Assembly (NCBI GenBank): GCA_016936415.1
Contig: JAFGXW010000032.1
Span: forward strand, 1 to 55,691
Direction: 5' to 3'
Source of the DNA: Bacilli bacterium
GTDB taxonomy: Bacteria; Bacillota_I; Bacilli_A; Izemoplasmatales; Izemoplasmataceae
DNA: 55,691 nucleotides
Below the pieces are notes generated by a model. The model searched no databases and was not told the DNA's origin. It was given only the letters and a program-made list of their open reading frames with translations. The first letter of the stretch is position 1. Every line of letters begins with the position of its first letter. Positions 40,942 to 48,821 of the stretch are shown piece by piece. The translations under genes and the position numbers were made by a program.

Positions 40942-42804
40942 ATGAAAGTGATTCATCAAGATGATTTATACTTTTTTAACCAAGGTAAGTTATATGATGC
41001 TTATCGTATTTTTGGTGCTCATTTATTAAAGAATGATGAATTTAAGGTAGTTGGAACGAGATTTACAGTTTGGGCTCCTCATGCCAAAGAAGTAAATGTC
41101 ATGGGAGAATTTAATGATTTTCAAGCCTGGGTTCACAACTTAGAAAAAGTTGATGAAAAAGGAATTTGGAGTATCACAATCCCTGGAGCAAACGTATGGA
41201 ATATGTATAAATATGAAATAAAAACGTTTGATGGTAGAACTCTTTATAAGAGTGACCCATACGCTTTCTTTAGCAGCGAAAGACCCGATACGTTATCAAA
41301 AGTATATGATTTATCTGGATATTTGTGGAATGATGATGATTTCATGAATCAAAGAAATCAGATTTTACCATATGAATCTCAAGTATCCATTTATGAATTA
41401 CATCTTGGTAGTTGGATGATAAAACCAGATGGAACATTCCATAAATACAATGAATTGGTTGATTTATTAATTCCCTATTTACTTGAAAATGGGTTTAATT
41501 TTCTTGAATTAATGCCAATCACAGAACATCCCTTGGATCAGTCTTGGGGATACCAAGGAACAGGATATTATAGCGCTACATCAAGATATGGTGTTCCACA
41601 AGATTTAATGTACCTGGTTGATCAATGCCACCAACACGGTATTGGTGTAATTTTGGATTGGGTTCCTGGACATATTTGTAAGGATGCTCATGGGTTATAT
41701 ATGTTTGATGGTGAACCGTTATATGAATATAGTGAAGAATGGAAACGTGAAAATATTGTTTGGGGAACGGCTAATCTTGATTTGGGAAGAGGAGAAGTAC
41801 AAAGTTTTCTCATTTCAAATGCGCTATTTTGGATGAAATTTTTCCATGTGGATGGGTTTCGAATTGATGCTGTTTCTAATTTGATTTATTATTTAGGAGA
41901 TTCATCAAAAGGAACAAATCAGGGTGCGATTTCGTTCTTACAAAATTTAAGTCGTCAAGTATTCAAGGAATTTGGAAATGCTTTGCTCATCGCAGAAGAT
42001 TCAACTGCTTATCCAAAAGTAACGCATCCTGTTCACGAAGGTGGACTTGGATTTAATTATAAATGGAATATGGGTTGGATGAATGATACATTAGAATATT
42101 TTGAAAAAGATCCGATTTATCGTAAATATCATCATGATAATATTACTTTTGGATTAACATACGCATTCAGTGAAAACTATGTATTGCCTTTATCTCACGA
42201 TGAAGTGGTCCATGGGAAACACTCGTTGGTAGATAAAATGCCTGGAGATTATTGGCAAAAGTTTGCCAACTATCGCGCTTTAATGGGACTATTTTTTACA
42301 CACCCAGGTAAAACGTTGTTATTTATGGGGGGAGAATTTGCCCAAATGCATGAATGGAAAGATTACACAGAGTTAGATTGGAATCTGCTTTCCTATCCTA
42401 TGCATCTTTCTGCGCAGCGATTTGTACGTGATATGAATCTGGTAGTAAAAGCAAATAAAGCGCTATATGAATTGGACCATCAATACAATGGTTTTCAATG
42501 GATTGATGCGAATAATAGAGATGATTCTATTTTTTCATTTGTTCGCTTTGCCAAAGATTCTAGTGATTTTGTCATTGTCGTTTTAAATCTTACGCCAAAG
42601 GTTCATCATAATTTTGAGCTTGGTGTTCCTGAAGCAGGAACTTATCTTGAATTAATCAATAGTGATAATGAAGTATATGGTGGTTCTAATCAATTTAATG
42701 GAGAGCCCATTCAATCTTTTCAAGCTGAAAAAAACGGATTTGAAAATGCTGTTCAAATCCTGTTGAGTCCATTATCCATAACAATTCTTAAGCGTGGTGA
42801 ATAA
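40942..42804 (+). CDS. glgB: 1,4-alpha-glucan branching enzyme
   Basis: GlgB adds alpha-1,6 branches to glycogen (GH13). The 620-residue protein has an N-terminal carbohydrate-binding domain (FTVWAPHAKEVNVMGEFNDF near residue 33). Catalytic regions follow: DWVPGHI near 236, the nucleophile Asp in DGFRIDAV near 305, the acid Glu in LIAEDST near 349 and LSHDEVVHGK near 415. The C-terminal beta domain is present. Length is normal for Firmicutes. The gene begins four bases after recX and two bases before glgC. Confidence 0.96.
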   Translation: MKVIHQDDLYFFNQGKLYDAYRIFGAHLLKNDEFKVVGTRFTVWAPHAKEVNVMGEFNDFQAWVHNLEKVDEKGIWSITIPGANVWNMYKYEIKTFDGRTLYKSDPYAFFSSERPDTLSKVYDLSGYLWNDDDFMNQRNQILPYESQVSIYELHLGSWMIKPDGTFHKYNELVDLLIPYLLENGFNFLELMPITEHPLDQSWGYQGTGYYSATSRYGVPQDLMYLVDQCHQHGIGVILDWVPGHICKDAHGLYMFDGEPLYEYSEEWKRENIVWGTANLDLGRGEVQSFLISNALFWMKFFHVDGFRIDAVSNLIYYLGDSSKGTNQGAISFLQNLSRQVFKEFGNALLIAEDSTAYPKVTHPVHEGGLGFNYKWNMGWMNDTLEYFEKDPIYRKYHHDNITFGLTYAFSENYVLPLSHDEVVHGKHSLVDKMPGDYWQKFANYRALMGLFFTHPGKTLLFMGGEFAQMHEWKDYTELDWNLLSYPMHLSAQRFVRDMNLVVKANKALYELDHQYNGFQWIDANNRDDSIFSFVRFAKDSSDFVIVVLNLTPKVHHNFELGVPEAGTYLELINSDNEVYGGSNQFNGEPIQSFQAEKNGFENAVQILLSPLSITILKRGE

Positions 42805-42806
42805 AA

Positions 42807-43937
42807 ATGAAAAAACAAATAGTCGCAATGGTTTTAGTTGGAGGAAGAGGTTCGAGACTTGGAAATATCACAAAACAAACTGCCAAACCAGCAGTTTCTT
42901 TTGGTGGAAAATACAAGTTAATTGATTTTGTCTTAAGTAGTTTATCCAATTCCTCGATTTCAACGGTTGGGATTATTACACAGTATGAACCATATGAATT
43001 GTTGAGTTATATTGAACATGGTAGCACATGGGATTTAGATGTGAATGAGGGAGGAATTTCTTTTTTAACACCATATACATCCGCAAATGGAGAATTATGG
43101 CAAAAAGGGACGGCTCATTCTGTTTATCAACACTTGCGATTTGTGGATCAATATAATCCGGACTTTGTGTTGATTTTATCAGGAGATCATGTCTATAAAA
43201 TGGACTATAATTTAATGATAAATGAGCATATTAAAAACAAAGCTGATATTACCATATCTACTTTTAAAGTGCATGATAATCCTTCCAGATATGGCATACT
43301 TGAACTAAATGAGTTAGACCAAGTTGTCAGTTTTGAAGAAAAACCAATTGCGCCAAAAAGTGATTTGGCATCAATGGGAATCTATGTTTTTAACACAAAG
43401 ATATTACACCAATTATTAGAAACAAAAGAAGAAAAAATATATGATTTTGGAAATGACATTATCCCTTTAGCGATTAAAAAAGAGCTTTCTATTTTCGGAT
43501 ATCGATTTGAAGGTTATTTTCGTGATGTTGGAACTGTGGAGAGTTTATATCAAGCAAATATGGATTTAATCGATAATCCACATTATTTGAAAATTCATGA
43601 TTATACTGATTTTCCGATTCTAACGAAATCATCGAATTTACCACCACATCATATTGTGCATAGTAAAAAAATAAATAGTTCTCTAATCAGTGATGGTTGT
43701 TTAATATACGGCGAGATTCATCATTCTATTTTATCGAGTGGCGTATTGGTGAGCGATCAATGTATTATCAAAGATTCTATCATCCATGCCAATGTAAAAA
43801 TTGGCAAAAACTGTCATATAGAAAATGCGATTATTGTCGAGGATTCTGTTATTTTAGCCAATACCGTTCTCCAATTTGATGAGATTACTGTAGTAGATAA
43901 CGAGTACTTGTGGAAGATGGGTGAACAAAATGAATAA
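42807..43937 (+). CDS. glgC: Glucose-1-phosphate adenylyltransferase, catalytic subunit
   Basis: GlgC makes ADP-glucose, the glycogen precursor, from ATP and glucose-1-phosphate. The 376-residue protein keeps the nucleotide loop GGRGSRLGNIT (residues 11-21) and Lys in AKPAVSFGGKYKLIDF. SGDHVYKMDY (near 123), EEKPIAPKS and the C-terminal left-handed beta-helix repeats are also present. It overlaps the following GlgD-GlgA gene by 8 bases, as GlgC and GlgD subunits form one heterotetramer in Firmicutes. Confidence 0.95.
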   Translation: MKKQIVAMVLVGGRGSRLGNITKQTAKPAVSFGGKYKLIDFVLSSLSNSSISTVGIITQYEPYELLSYIEHGSTWDLDVNEGGISFLTPYTSANGELWQKGTAHSVYQHLRFVDQYNPDFVLILSGDHVYKMDYNLMINEHIKNKADITISTFKVHDNPSRYGILELNELDQVVSFEEKPIAPKSDLASMGIYVFNTKILHQLLETKEEKIYDFGNDIIPLAIKKELSIFGYRFEGYFRDVGTVESLYQANMDLIDNPHYLKIHDYTDFPILTKSSNLPPHHIVHSKKINSSLISDGCLIYGEIHHSILSSGVLVSDQCIIKDSIIHANVKIGKNCHIENAIIVEDSVILANTVLQFDEITVVDNEYLWKMGEQNE

Positions 43938-46344
43938 GCAAATGTTTGCGATAGTTGATGCCACATTCAAAGAAAATTTGGAACAACTTACATTACATCG
44001 TATGCCTGGAGCTCTACCATTTTCAGGTAAATACCGTTTGATTGATTTTACGTTATCCAACCTGCGTAACTCCCGTATTATCAACGTTGCTATTTTTCCA
44101 TATGGAAACTATCGATCATTACAAGACCATGTTGGTAGCGGTAAACGTTGGGATTTGGATCGTCGTCGAGATGGGCTCTTTATTTTGCCACCTAAAAACT
44201 TGTATATACCACCAGATGAGATGATCACCTTTCAACGTTTGTTTGAACACATCGAGTTTTTACGACGTTCTACACAAGACTATGCCGTAATCACTGGTGC
44301 AAACATTGTTTGGAACATAGATTATAATGACTGTTTGGAAGAACATATTAATAAGAATGCGGATATCACTGAAATTATGTATCAACAAATTCGTTTAAAA
44401 ACATTCATTATTTCTAAGAAGTTACTGCTTGAATACATTGAAACATACGATTCACTTGAATATAAAACGTTGTTAGATTTGGTAGAAAAAGCACCAAATC
44501 TGAATGTGAATATTTATAAACACAAAAACTATACAAGAACCATTAATGATACATTTAATTATTTGAAATCAAATCTTGATATGTTGAGATTTGACATTGG
44601 TATGACGATATTTAGAGAAGACCGTCCGGTATACTCAAAGGAAAAAACGGCACCTCCTGCAAAATATTTGAATCATGCTAGTATTGACAACTCAATGATA
44701 TCAAGTGGATGCATTGTTGATGGCCAAATTCACAATAGTATGATTGGCCGTGATGTGATCATCAAAAAAGGCGCAATTGTAGAAAATAGTTTTATTATGA
44801 GTAACTGTGTGATAGAAGAAAATGCCCATTTAAATTATACAATATTAGATAAACAGACTGTGGTTAAGCAAAACACGGTTCTTGAAGGAACACTGCGTAT
44901 TCCTTACGTATCGCAAAAAGAACAAATTATTTCTCCATTCAATGGAATTCGGGTGTTACTCGTTGCGAGTGAATCATACCCATTCATTAAGACTGGAGGA
45001 CTGGCTGATGTTATCGGTTCACTTTCTAGGAATTTGGCTAGACAAGGAATTGATACAACAGTAATCATTCCACTATATAAAAAAATTCGAGACAGCTTTG
45101 GAGAAAGCTTGAAAATTGAGTTCACGAAAACAATTATTTATGGTGAAAAAAGATACAAAGTAAGTATATATGGTTATTTATATAAAAAAGTGAAATACTA
45201 CTTTGTCGATAACTTTGATTTCTTTGATTATGAGGGAATATATGGACTAGAAAATGATACAGACCGTTTTGCTTTCTTTAACAAAACAGTGGTGGATTTA
45301 TTGGATGATTTAGATCCATATGACCTAATCCATATTCATGATTGGCATACTTCGCTTATACCAATTTTAATCGATAATTCCTCACACAAAGGCGTTAATA
45401 CACTGTTGACAATTCACAATATTGATTATCAAGGAATTGCCAAAAATGAAATCATTAACAAACTAGGAATTAAACATTTTGTCTTTAAGGAGGAACACAT
45501 CAACTTTTTAGACATTGGAATTAATACTGCAACCAAGTTGTCTACCGTATCTCCAACATATAAAGAAGAACTAAAATATGAGTATTATGGTAAAAACTTA
45601 ACACATTCTTTGATGAGAAGAGAACGTGATTTTTACGGGATATTAAACGGTATTTCTTCGTCATTTAATCCTGAGACAGACAAAAGCTTGAAAGTGAATT
45701 ATTCCAAAGAGACCATTGCTTTAAAACTCGATAACAAAATATATTTACAGGAAAAAATGTCTTTACCACAGAATAAAAACACATTTGTGATTGGAATGGT
45801 TTCACGCTTGGTGGAACAAAAAGGATTTGATTTAATCCTTCAAGTACTAGAAGATATATTGAGAGATCGTGATATTCAGTTTGTATTGTTAGGTGCTGGA
45901 GATGAATATTATGTCAATGAGTTTACCAAAATTGCAGAACGTTTCCCAAATCAAGTCAAATTGAATATTGGATACGATGCAGCTAATCCAAATATTATTT
46001 ATGGAGGGGCAGATGTTTTTCTAATGCCTTCAAGATTTGAACCTTGTGGGTTAGGGCAAATGATTGCATTGCGTTATGGAACACTTCCAATTGTTCGAAA
46101 AACAGGTGGACTTGGAGATACTGTTTTTAAATATGATCCGTTAACTGAAAAAGGAAATGGATTTACATTTAACAACTATGATTCTCATGAAATGAAGCAT
46201 GTTATACTGGGTGCTTATGAAATTTATAAACACAATCAATTGGTTTGGAACAGTCTTATCGTTCGAGCAATGAAGTCTGATAATAGCTTAGTTAAATCTA
46301 CACAAAAATACATCGAGTTATACAAAGTAATCAAAGAAACATAA
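43930..46344 (+). CDS. glgDA: GlgD-GlgA fusion: ADP-glucose pyrophosphorylase regulatory subunit joined to glycogen synthase
   Basis: One 804-residue ORF with no internal stop joins two proteins. Residues 1-335 are GlgD-like: the sugar-nucleotidyltransferase fold with GKYRLIDFTLSNLRNSR, but without the GGxGxRL catalytic loop seen in GlgC. Beta-helix repeats end near IPYVSQ. From about residue 340 it is a full GT5 glycogen synthase (about 465 residues), beginning IRVLLVASESYPFIKTGGLADV with the KTGGL ADP-glucose motif. It ends with SRFEPCGLGQM and RKTGGLGDTV. The start is the ATG at 43930 with GGGTGA before it. These are normally separate genes. Confidence 0.9.
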   Translation: MNKQMFAIVDATFKENLEQLTLHRMPGALPFSGKYRLIDFTLSNLRNSRIINVAIFPYGNYRSLQDHVGSGKRWDLDRRRDGLFILPPKNLYIPPDEMITFQRLFEHIEFLRRSTQDYAVITGANIVWNIDYNDCLEEHINKNADITEIMYQQIRLKTFIISKKLLLEYIETYDSLEYKTLLDLVEKAPNLNVNIYKHKNYTRTINDTFNYLKSNLDMLRFDIGMTIFREDRPVYSKEKTAPPAKYLNHASIDNSMISSGCIVDGQIHNSMIGRDVIIKKGAIVENSFIMSNCVIEENAHLNYTILDKQTVVKQNTVLEGTLRIPYVSQKEQIISPFNGIRVLLVASESYPFIKTGGLADVIGSLSRNLARQGIDTTVIIPLYKKIRDSFGESLKIEFTKTIIYGEKRYKVSIYGYLYKKVKYYFVDNFDFFDYEGIYGLENDTDRFAFFNKTVVDLLDDLDPYDLIHIHDWHTSLIPILIDNSSHKGVNTLLTIHNIDYQGIAKNEIINKLGIKHFVFKEEHINFLDIGINTATKLSTVSPTYKEELKYEYYGKNLTHSLMRRERDFYGILNGISSSFNPETDKSLKVNYSKETIALKLDNKIYLQEKMSLPQNKNTFVIGMVSRLVEQKGFDLILQVLEDILRDRDIQFVLLGAGDEYYVNEFTKIAERFPNQVKLNIGYDAANPNIIYGGADVFLMPSRFEPCGLGQMIALRYGTLPIVRKTGGLGDTVFKYDPLTEKGNGFTFNNYDSHEMKHVILGAYEIYKHNQLVWNSLIVRAMKSDNSLVKSTQKYIELYKVIKET

Positions 46345-46424: not shown

Positions 46425-48821
46425 ATGACTAATTATTTTAAAGATGAAATTACCTTTTTATCCGAATTTAAGAATCGGATTGAAAAGCGCTATATTGTCC
46501 ATATAAAAGATGCGAGCATCCGTCAGAAATACAATGTTTTAGGTGAAATGGTAAGTGAAGTTATTGCTGTGAACTGGTTAGAAACAAAAGAAAAACTAGC
46601 GGAGAACAATTTAAAGGAAGTATACTATTTTTCAATGGAATTTTTAATGGGACGTCTCATTACCAATAACATTATGAATTTGGGACTTCACGATGTTGTA
46701 AAAAAAGGCTTGGCTTTGGAAAATATGGATATCAATGAAATTGAAAATTATGAAGCAGATGCAGGACTTGGAAATGGTGGCTTGGGAAGACTTGCTGCTT
46801 GTTTCTTAGACTCCATGGCAAGTTTGAACTTACCAGGATTTGGAAATGGAATTCGATATCGTTATGGATTATTTGAACAACGTATCTTGGATGGTTATCA
46901 AATTGAAAAACCGGATGATTGGTTAAAAGATGGATATGTTTGGGAAGTGAGAATGGAAGAAGAAAGTTTGGATATTCCATTTGGTGGATTCGTTAGTTTT
47001 GAAGAAGGTAAAGCAATTTATCATCCAAATGAGATGATTAAAGCGATTCCTTATGATGTTCCGATTGTTGGGAATGATAATGGAATCGTAACTAGTTTAC
47101 GTTTATGGAATGCAGAACCTACGAACCAAAAACCGGATGATATTAATGGGTTTGAGTATGATTCATCAATTCGTAAAATTAGTGGGTTTTTATATCCCGA
47201 TGATGCGACTAGAGAAGGTAAAGTATTACGCTTAAAACAACAATATTTCTTTAGTGCCGCAGGGGTAAGAAGTGTGTTGATAAAACACCTCGATAAATAC
47301 CATACATTCACCAATGTTCCTGATAAATTGGTATTTCAAATCAACGATACTCATCCTTCATTAATTGTAGCTGAGATGATGCGATTATTAGTTGATGATT
47401 ATCATTTAGAGTGGGATGAGGCATGGGATATTACGAATCGTTCATGTGCTTATACAAATCATACAATATTATCTGAGGCGCTTGAAAAATGGCCAGTTGA
47501 TATTTTTCAACCAGTATTACCGAGAATCTATCAAATTATCGAAGAAATCAATCGTCGTTTTTGTTTGATGTTAATTGAAAAGAAGTATTCACAAGAAATC
47601 ATCAATAAATTAGCCATTATATCAAATGGAAGAATTCATATGGCACATCTTGCAATCGTTGGTTCATTTAGTGTGAATGGTGTTGCTGCATTACACACAG
47701 ATATTTTAAAGAATATAGAAATGAAAGATTTCAATGAACTGTATCCTACAAAATTCAATAATAAAACAAATGGGATTACACACCGTAGATGGTTGCTTCA
47801 TTCAAACCCTATTTTAGCAAGTATAGTAGATGAAGTTGCTCCTGGTTGGGTGAAAAACCCTGATCTTCTTGAAAAATTATGGGTTAAAGCTGGAACTAAA
47901 AAATACCAAGAGAAGATTTCAAAAATGAAGTTGTCGATGAAAATCGCCCTTGCTGAACGAATTGAAAAAGAACAAGGAATCGAGTTGAATCCAAAATCAA
48001 TTTTTGATATTCAAGTAAAAAGAATGCACGAATATAAACGTCAGTTGATGAATGCTCTACATATTATGTATGTGTATAATCGCTTGAAAACAGACTCTGA
48101 TTTTAAAGCAAGTTATTACCCACATAGTTTTATTTTTGGTGCAAAAGCTGCTTCAGGATACTATTACGCAAAAAAAATTATTAAACTAATCAATACCATT
48201 GCTGAAAAAGTGAACAATGATCCAGATACTTCCGATTTACTTAAAGTTGTATTTGTTGAAAACTATAATGTCACTTACGCAGAACAAATTATGCCTGCTT
48301 GTGATATTTCAGAACAAATTTCTACGGCCTCTAAAGAAGCCAGTGGAACAGGTAATATGAAATTCATGATGAATGGTGCTCTTACACTAGGTACATTAGA
48401 TGGTGCTAACGTGGAAATTGCAGAATTAGTCACAGAAGATAATATCTTTATTTTTGGATTGACAAGTGATGAAGTGAATGAGTACTATAAAAATGGAACG
48501 TATAGACCAAAGGATTTTTATGAAAGCAATCCACATTTAAAAGAAGTAATTGATCAATTAACAAATGGGTTTTTTGAAGATGTTTCTAAAGAAGAGTTTG
48601 CTGAGATTAAAAACAAATTATTAGAAAGAGATCATTATTTTGTATTGCAAGATTTTGAAGGATATCGTCTTGCACATGAACAAGCCAATGAACTTTATAA
48701 AAATCAACCGAAATGGTTGGAGGCAAGTATTAAAAACATTGCAAAAAGTGGTTATTTTTCAAGTGATAGAACAATCGCTCAATATGCAAATGAGATTTGG
48801 GATTTAAAGAAATTAATTTGA
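46425..48821 (+). CDS. glgP: Glycogen phosphorylase
   Basis: GlgP releases glucose-1-phosphate from glycogen with pyridoxal phosphate. The 798-residue GT35 protein has DAGLGNGGLGRLAACFLDS near residue 110, FQINDTHPSL near 303, QVKRMHEYKRQ near 530 and the PLP-lysine segment EASGTGNMKFMMNGALTLGT near 640. Length is typical. It has its own promoter and terminator, so breakdown can be controlled apart from synthesis (glgB, glgC, glgDA), which sits in the upstream operon. Confidence 0.97.
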   Translation: MTNYFKDEITFLSEFKNRIEKRYIVHIKDASIRQKYNVLGEMVSEVIAVNWLETKEKLAENNLKEVYYFSMEFLMGRLITNNIMNLGLHDVVKKGLALENMDINEIENYEADAGLGNGGLGRLAACFLDSMASLNLPGFGNGIRYRYGLFEQRILDGYQIEKPDDWLKDGYVWEVRMEEESLDIPFGGFVSFEEGKAIYHPNEMIKAIPYDVPIVGNDNGIVTSLRLWNAEPTNQKPDDINGFEYDSSIRKISGFLYPDDATREGKVLRLKQQYFFSAAGVRSVLIKHLDKYHTFTNVPDKLVFQINDTHPSLIVAEMMRLLVDDYHLEWDEAWDITNRSCAYTNHTILSEALEKWPVDIFQPVLPRIYQIIEEINRRFCLMLIEKKYSQEIINKLAIISNGRIHMAHLAIVGSFSVNGVAALHTDILKNIEMKDFNELYPTKFNNKTNGITHRRWLLHSNPILASIVDEVAPGWVKNPDLLEKLWVKAGTKKYQEKISKMKLSMKIALAERIEKEQGIELNPKSIFDIQVKRMHEYKRQLMNALHIMYVYNRLKTDSDFKASYYPHSFIFGAKAASGYYYAKKIIKLINTIAEKVNNDPDTSDLLKVVFVENYNVTYAEQIMPACDISEQISTASKEASGTGNMKFMMNGALTLGTLDGANVEIAELVTEDNIFIFGLTSDEVNEYYKNGTYRPKDFYESNPHLKEVIDQLTNGFFEDVSKEEFAEIKNKLLERDHYFVLQDFEGYRLAHEQANELYKNQPKWLEASIKNIAKSGYFSSDRTIAQYANEIWDLKKLI

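Follow-up and report, generated by a model that had tools for sequence, protein, structure and literature searches.

The glycogen operon of this Bacilli bacterium contains a gene, glgDA, in which the ADP-glucose pyrophosphorylase subunit GlgD and the glycogen synthase GlgA form a single protein. We consider it probable that glgDA is a working gene that arose by one ancient fusion, and that its GlgD half assembles with the catalytic subunit GlgC, which would place the synthase next to where ADP-glucose is made. The GlgD-GlgA fusion modifies a system that is already known and does not found another.

A fusion gene in a glycogen operon

Within the window, i.e., the whole stretch of 55,691 nucleotides that was analyzed, the glycogen operon consists of four consecutive genes, glgB, glgC, glgDA and glgP. 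These genes and the relevant parts of the fusion are as follows.

40942..42804, + strand: glgB, encoding the branching enzyme; it precedes glgC in the operon
42807..43937, + strand: glgC, 376 aa, the catalytic subunit of ADP-glucose pyrophosphorylase, with its catalytic motifs intact
43930..46344, + strand: glgDA, GlgD-GlgA fusion, 804 aa (the open reading frame opens at GTG 43921 and has 807 aa)
43978..44373, + strand: GlgD half, domain resembling nucleotidyltransferases that lacks the catalytic motifs (Pfam, residues 20-151)
44383..44388, + strand: site at which 31 residues, GlgC residues 156-186, are missing; in the 807-aa frame it falls between residues 155 and 156
44656..44880, + strand: GlgD half, left-handed beta-helix (Pfam, residues 246-320; strands in the structure model)
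44917..44964, + strand: joint from the GlgD tail (K330) to the GlgA start (V345), numbered as in the 804-aa protein, with 14 residues between them
44950..45612, + strand: GlgA half, starch synthase catalytic domain (Glyco_transf_5)
45760..46209, + strand: GlgA half, Glycos_transf_1 domain
46425..48821, + strand: glgP, glycogen phosphorylase, operon gene downstream of the fusion

The initial annotation had placed GlgD and GlgA in one 804-residue frame, directly after glgC and overlapping it, and our analysis agrees on both points. The frame has no internal stop, from either GTG 43921 (807 aa) or ATG 43930 (804 aa) to the stop at 46344, and the ATG overlaps the end of glgC (43937) by 8 nt. Pfam assigns NTP_transferase to residues 20-151, a left-handed beta-helix to residues 246-320, Glyco_transf_5 to residues 344-564 and Glycos_transf_1 to residues 614-763, so the three domains that the initial annotation had named for a domain search are all present on the 804-residue protein. 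The same protein exceeds the curated NCBIfam cut-offs of both glgD (TIGR02092, 288.6 bits against 236.6) and glgA (TIGR02095, 487.8 bits against 328.45). Its predicted structure has a mean pLDDT of 90.4 and a pTM of 0.76. A Foldseek search with this model returns bacterial glycogen synthases first and ADP-glucose pyrophosphorylases second.

Occurrence of the fusion and its genomic context

The window lies in contig 49 of a fragmented 1.49-Mb draft genome in 148 contigs, whose named close relatives are Candidatus Izemoplasma/Izimaplasma, e.g., Izimaplasma HR2 (78% identity). Such fragmentation could raise the suspicion that the fusion is an artefact of assembly or annotation, in which a stop was lost or a frameshift introduced. 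We give this explanation practically no chance, because relatives refute it: the identical joint is shared by dozens of independently assembled genomes, some of them a single contig (G014, G028, G040, G044, G071 and G082; G and L numbers are genome and locus codes of this analysis, and f10, f14, f15 and f18 are coded family labels). The region near 44900-44950, for which the initial annotation had advised a check of the reads, thus has the same uninterrupted architecture in all of these genomes. Internal stops appeared at first sight in the matches of G042, G057, G053 and G039; these stops lie outside the genes, whose open reading frames of 807-809 residues are intact.

A search for the same architecture across genomes, also suggested in the initial annotation, found the fusion to be widespread in the lineage. 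In a whole-protein search, both halves fell into one match in 51 of 61 searched genomes of the window's order, and contig ends cut the match in two more. A further 9 genomes, from two other families (3 in f10 and 6 in f14), came from a sample of 395 genomes of the class. In all other GlgD-bearing families that we looked at, glgD and glgA are two genes. No independent fusion was seen in our class and phylum samples, which overlap heavily and mostly represent one class. The plasmid matches that we inspected (Anoxybacillus, a Bacillus-like operon, Acetoanaerobium and Subdoligranulum) likewise have separate glgD and glgA genes and no fusion. We found no description of a GlgD-GlgA fusion in the open-access literature that we searched. 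The initial annotation's remark that none is described therefore stands for that literature, though publicly available genomes of the lineage commonly carry the gene.

Three further observations concern gene arrangements in other families. A near-complete f10 genome (G109, L118:5723-7908) has the fused operon plus a separate glgC and short glgD, with no adjoining glgA. At two f18 loci (L074:1489-4044 and L076:1468-3999), the stop of a long glgD directly abuts the ATG of glgA in the same frame, so that a single change would create an independent fusion. Finally, a second GlgA in f15 (G225:C34, G332:C12, G390:C13, G352:C2 and G357:C1) lies in stop-free frames of 641-839 codons, which exceed GlgA alone; this is possibly another fusion, or merely an open frame.

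The context of glgDA is strongly conserved. The order glgB, glgC, glgDA, glgP is present in 55 of 59 fused loci, a count in which some loci represent one genome taken twice, and the remaining 4 lose their upstream part to contig ends. In every locus that reaches that far, glgC is directly upstream of glgDA, mostly overlapping it. The catalytic residues of the separate GlgC (42807-43937 in the window) are invariant in 28 sequences. This conserved, mostly overlapping pair makes a GlgC/GlgD partnership likely here.

The window's genome has a second, unfused glgA-glgC pair (G000:C92, L001:1411-3692), which is present in most relatives; its GlgA and the fused one are not sister groups. Some small genomes retain the GlgA of this second locus with a fused operon that has decayed or is absent. 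For example, a relative with a 1.0-Mb genome (G032, L072:2800-8650) has a decayed operon in which glgB is split and both glgC and glgDA are fragmented, while its second GlgA is intact. Given the second locus and the loss of the operon in reduced genomes, the fused system is useful without being essential.

Catalytic motifs of the two halves

The initial annotation described the GlgA half as intact from its KTGGL motif, and alignment of 43 sequences upholds this description. The residues K354, G356, G357, L358, H468, D471, R626, K631, E704 and C706, which belong to the motifs KTGGL, HDWH, R....K and EPCG, are invariant. The GlgA half also has the GT5 fold, with Foldseek matches to 1rzu and 2qzs at TM-scores by target of 0.87-0.89.

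The GlgD half, in contrast to GlgC, has lost its catalytic motifs. As the initial annotation had noted, the GGxGxRL loop is absent, though sequence comparison shows this loss to be common to the ordinary free GlgD compared here and not peculiar to the fusion. The loop glycines of GlgC and its residues D127, K179 and D240 are replaced or deleted in fused GlgD halves; D127 and D240 are replaced in nearly all. We take D127 and D240 to be E. coli D142 and D276, and K179 to be E. coli K195, which binds glucose-1-phosphate. In addition, the stretch corresponding to GlgC residues 156-186 is absent from all 41 fused proteins and from both unfused short GlgD, and present in all 33 long free GlgD; it takes in E178 and K179 of the FEEKP motif of GlgC. 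With all catalytic motifs of GlgC and this 31-residue stretch gone, it is very unlikely that the GlgD half is a pyrophosphorylase.

We also considered whether the deletion is a hallmark of the fusion, and ruled this out; the GlgD of the unfused f14 g83 system has the deletion, and Bacillaceae GlgD is equally short. Despite its losses the GlgD half remains recognizable as a member of its family. It groups with GlgD in a tree of GlgD and GlgC, in which the split between the two has support of 100/100, and it retains the family's beta-helix and fold according to Pfam, the structure model and Foldseek.

The joint between the halves

The joint was delimited by K330, an invariant lysine close to where the GlgD half ends, and V345, which lies in the first strand of GlgA. 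The spacing between them is 14 residues in all 43 fused proteins, at identities down to 40%, while the letters vary. In the unfused f14 g83 system, the GlgD tail extends 9 residues past the matching lysine and GlgA begins 5 residues before the matching strand position. The sum of tail and lead implies that the proteins were fused end to end, with no loss and no added linker. Judging from these alignments, this looks like a fixed joint rather than a flexible tether, for which variable length would be expected. In the structure model, pLDDT dips to about 69 at the joint, and this dip together with the pTM means that the relative placing of the two halves is uncertain. Production of a separate GlgA from an internal start was considered and rejected, since a start codon and a Shine-Dalgarno-like site are present at the joint in just 1 of 43 sequences.

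A simpler possibility is that the fusion merely sets the ratio and co-production of its two halves, with GlgD modulating GlgC, GlgA acting as usual and no functional coupling between them. Such a fusion needs little change: most unfused operons have glgD and glgA side by side with hardly a gap, and in f14 g83 (TAA, then ATG directly, in frame) and f18 an in-frame ATG comes immediately after the stop. The tolerance of small genomes to the loss of the fused operon also suits this explanation. However, co-production alone leaves unexplained why the joint has equal length down to 40% identity, or why GlgD slowed after fusion relative to both GlgA and GlgC (see below). We therefore regard it as unlikely, though as an explanation to be taken seriously.

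Evolutionary constraint on the parts

In unfused systems, conservation by identity decreases from GlgC to GlgA to GlgD. Fused systems put the GlgD half first: of 110 within-family pairs, it is more conserved than the GlgA half in 109 and than GlgC in 80; these pairs were compared over common columns and share history, so they are not independent. Tree lengths show the same reversal. The ratio of GlgD to GlgC is 1.43-1.58 in unfused systems versus 0.71-0.83 in fused systems, and that of GlgD to GlgA is 0.95-1.04 versus 0.66-0.85. Because the ratio of GlgA to GlgC also falls, from 1.40-1.66 to about 1.0, part of the reversal is owed to a faster GlgC and not to a slower GlgD. Short GlgD that is not fused (Bacillaceae and f14 g83) remains the least conserved member of its set, which indicates that the change in constraint tracks the fusion and not the deletion. 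Values of dN/dS are mostly saturated; in the only pair free of saturation, the two halves have values of 0.04 and 0.05. That a half without catalytic motifs is nevertheless the slowest-evolving part suggests that it is retained for a non-chemical role.

One such role would lie outside the pyrophosphorylase altogether, if the GlgD half has left that enzyme and serves GlgA alone as an oligomerization, effector-sensing or glycogen-holding domain. A changed role is suggested by residues 61-110 of the GlgD half, whose mean column conservation is 0.80 in fused proteins versus 0.48 in free GlgD and 0.62 in GlgC, and the relatively faster evolution of GlgC in fused operons points the same way. However, glgC is invariably found directly upstream where the locus reaches that far, mostly overlapping glgDA, and the beta-helix and family fold are retained. 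On balance, we consider such a departure from the pyrophosphorylase improbable.

Origin of the fusion

In a careful tree of GlgA, the fused GlgA halves lie on one side of a branch with support of 99/96, apart from free GlgA and from the second GlgA that these genomes encode. In the corresponding GlgD tree, the fused halves group with support of 94/98, inside a clade of short GlgD with Bacillaceae and f14 g83 (98/97); adding the separate short GlgD of an f10 genome drops the support for the fused group to 73/78. The simplest account of these trees, which do not tell vertical descent from transfer, is one ancient fusion in a glgBCDAP operon of the Bacillaceae type, for which GlgA gives good support and GlgD less. 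The f14 g83 system itself is unsupported as the direct ancestor of the fusion, since its GlgA groups with Bacillaceae GlgA (99/98).

Proposed function and comparison with known systems

Our preferred explanation is the GlgC-GlgDA complex introduced at the outset. The GlgD half, which very probably makes no ADP-glucose itself, most likely still joins the GlgC of its operon as free GlgD does. Each GlgDA would then bring a synthase domain to the pyrophosphorylase core via the short joint of fixed length, and the resulting hetero-oligomers would carry synthase domains held close to the beta-helix end of that core. ADP-glucose would be made beside its user, and the amount and position of the synthase would be tied to the pyrophosphorylase. 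The conserved operon, the constant length of the joint and the unusual constraint on the GlgD half all fit such a complex, a possibility that the initial annotation had raised. Counting against coupling, GlgA in other bacteria works on diffusing ADP-glucose without a tether. A more elaborate possibility, which we offer only tentatively, is a glycogen-building machine in which the dead subunit is a scaffold that docks the synthase rigidly on GlgC and ADP-glucose is handed straight from the enzyme that makes it to the enzyme that uses it.

Several known systems offer comparisons. Heterotetramers of GlgC and GlgD are established in Firmicutes, where inactive GlgD joins GlgC and modulates its activity (PMC9093745). 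These pyrophosphorylases (Geobacillus, Streptococcus and Ruminococcus) combine catalytic GlgC with inactive GlgD, as here, but in our case GlgD is the N-terminal half of a glycogen synthase. The Bacillaceae glgBCDAP operon (e.g., on an Anoxybacillus amylolyticus plasmid, L114) shares the gene order, a separate catalytic GlgC and a short GlgD of about 341 aa; however, its glgD and glgA are separate and its GlgD ranks last of the three in conservation. GT5 synthases (E. coli 2qzs and A. tumefaciens 1rzu) share the fold and active-site motifs of the fused GlgA, whereas in the fusion a GlgD domain of about 340 residues precedes the synthase. A loose parallel is found in cereal starch-synthesis complexes with SSIIIa and AGPase, in which the maker of ADP-glucose is physically associated with a starch synthase (PMC7230733), but these form from separate proteins, while the link in the fusion is covalent. 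The GlgA-GlgB fusion of Criblamydiaceae and Waddliaceae likewise joins a glycogen synthase gene to a pathway neighbor (PMC11046441). There, however, the partner is another one and the pathway is broken, whereas in the present case the motifs are intact and subject to selection.

With its covalent link, the fusion is a natural system in which to ask whether the two committed steps of bacterial glycogen synthesis act as a unit. Moreover, a non-catalytic subunit has, since the fusion, become the most constrained member of its set, and the purpose of GlgD is thereby directly testable.
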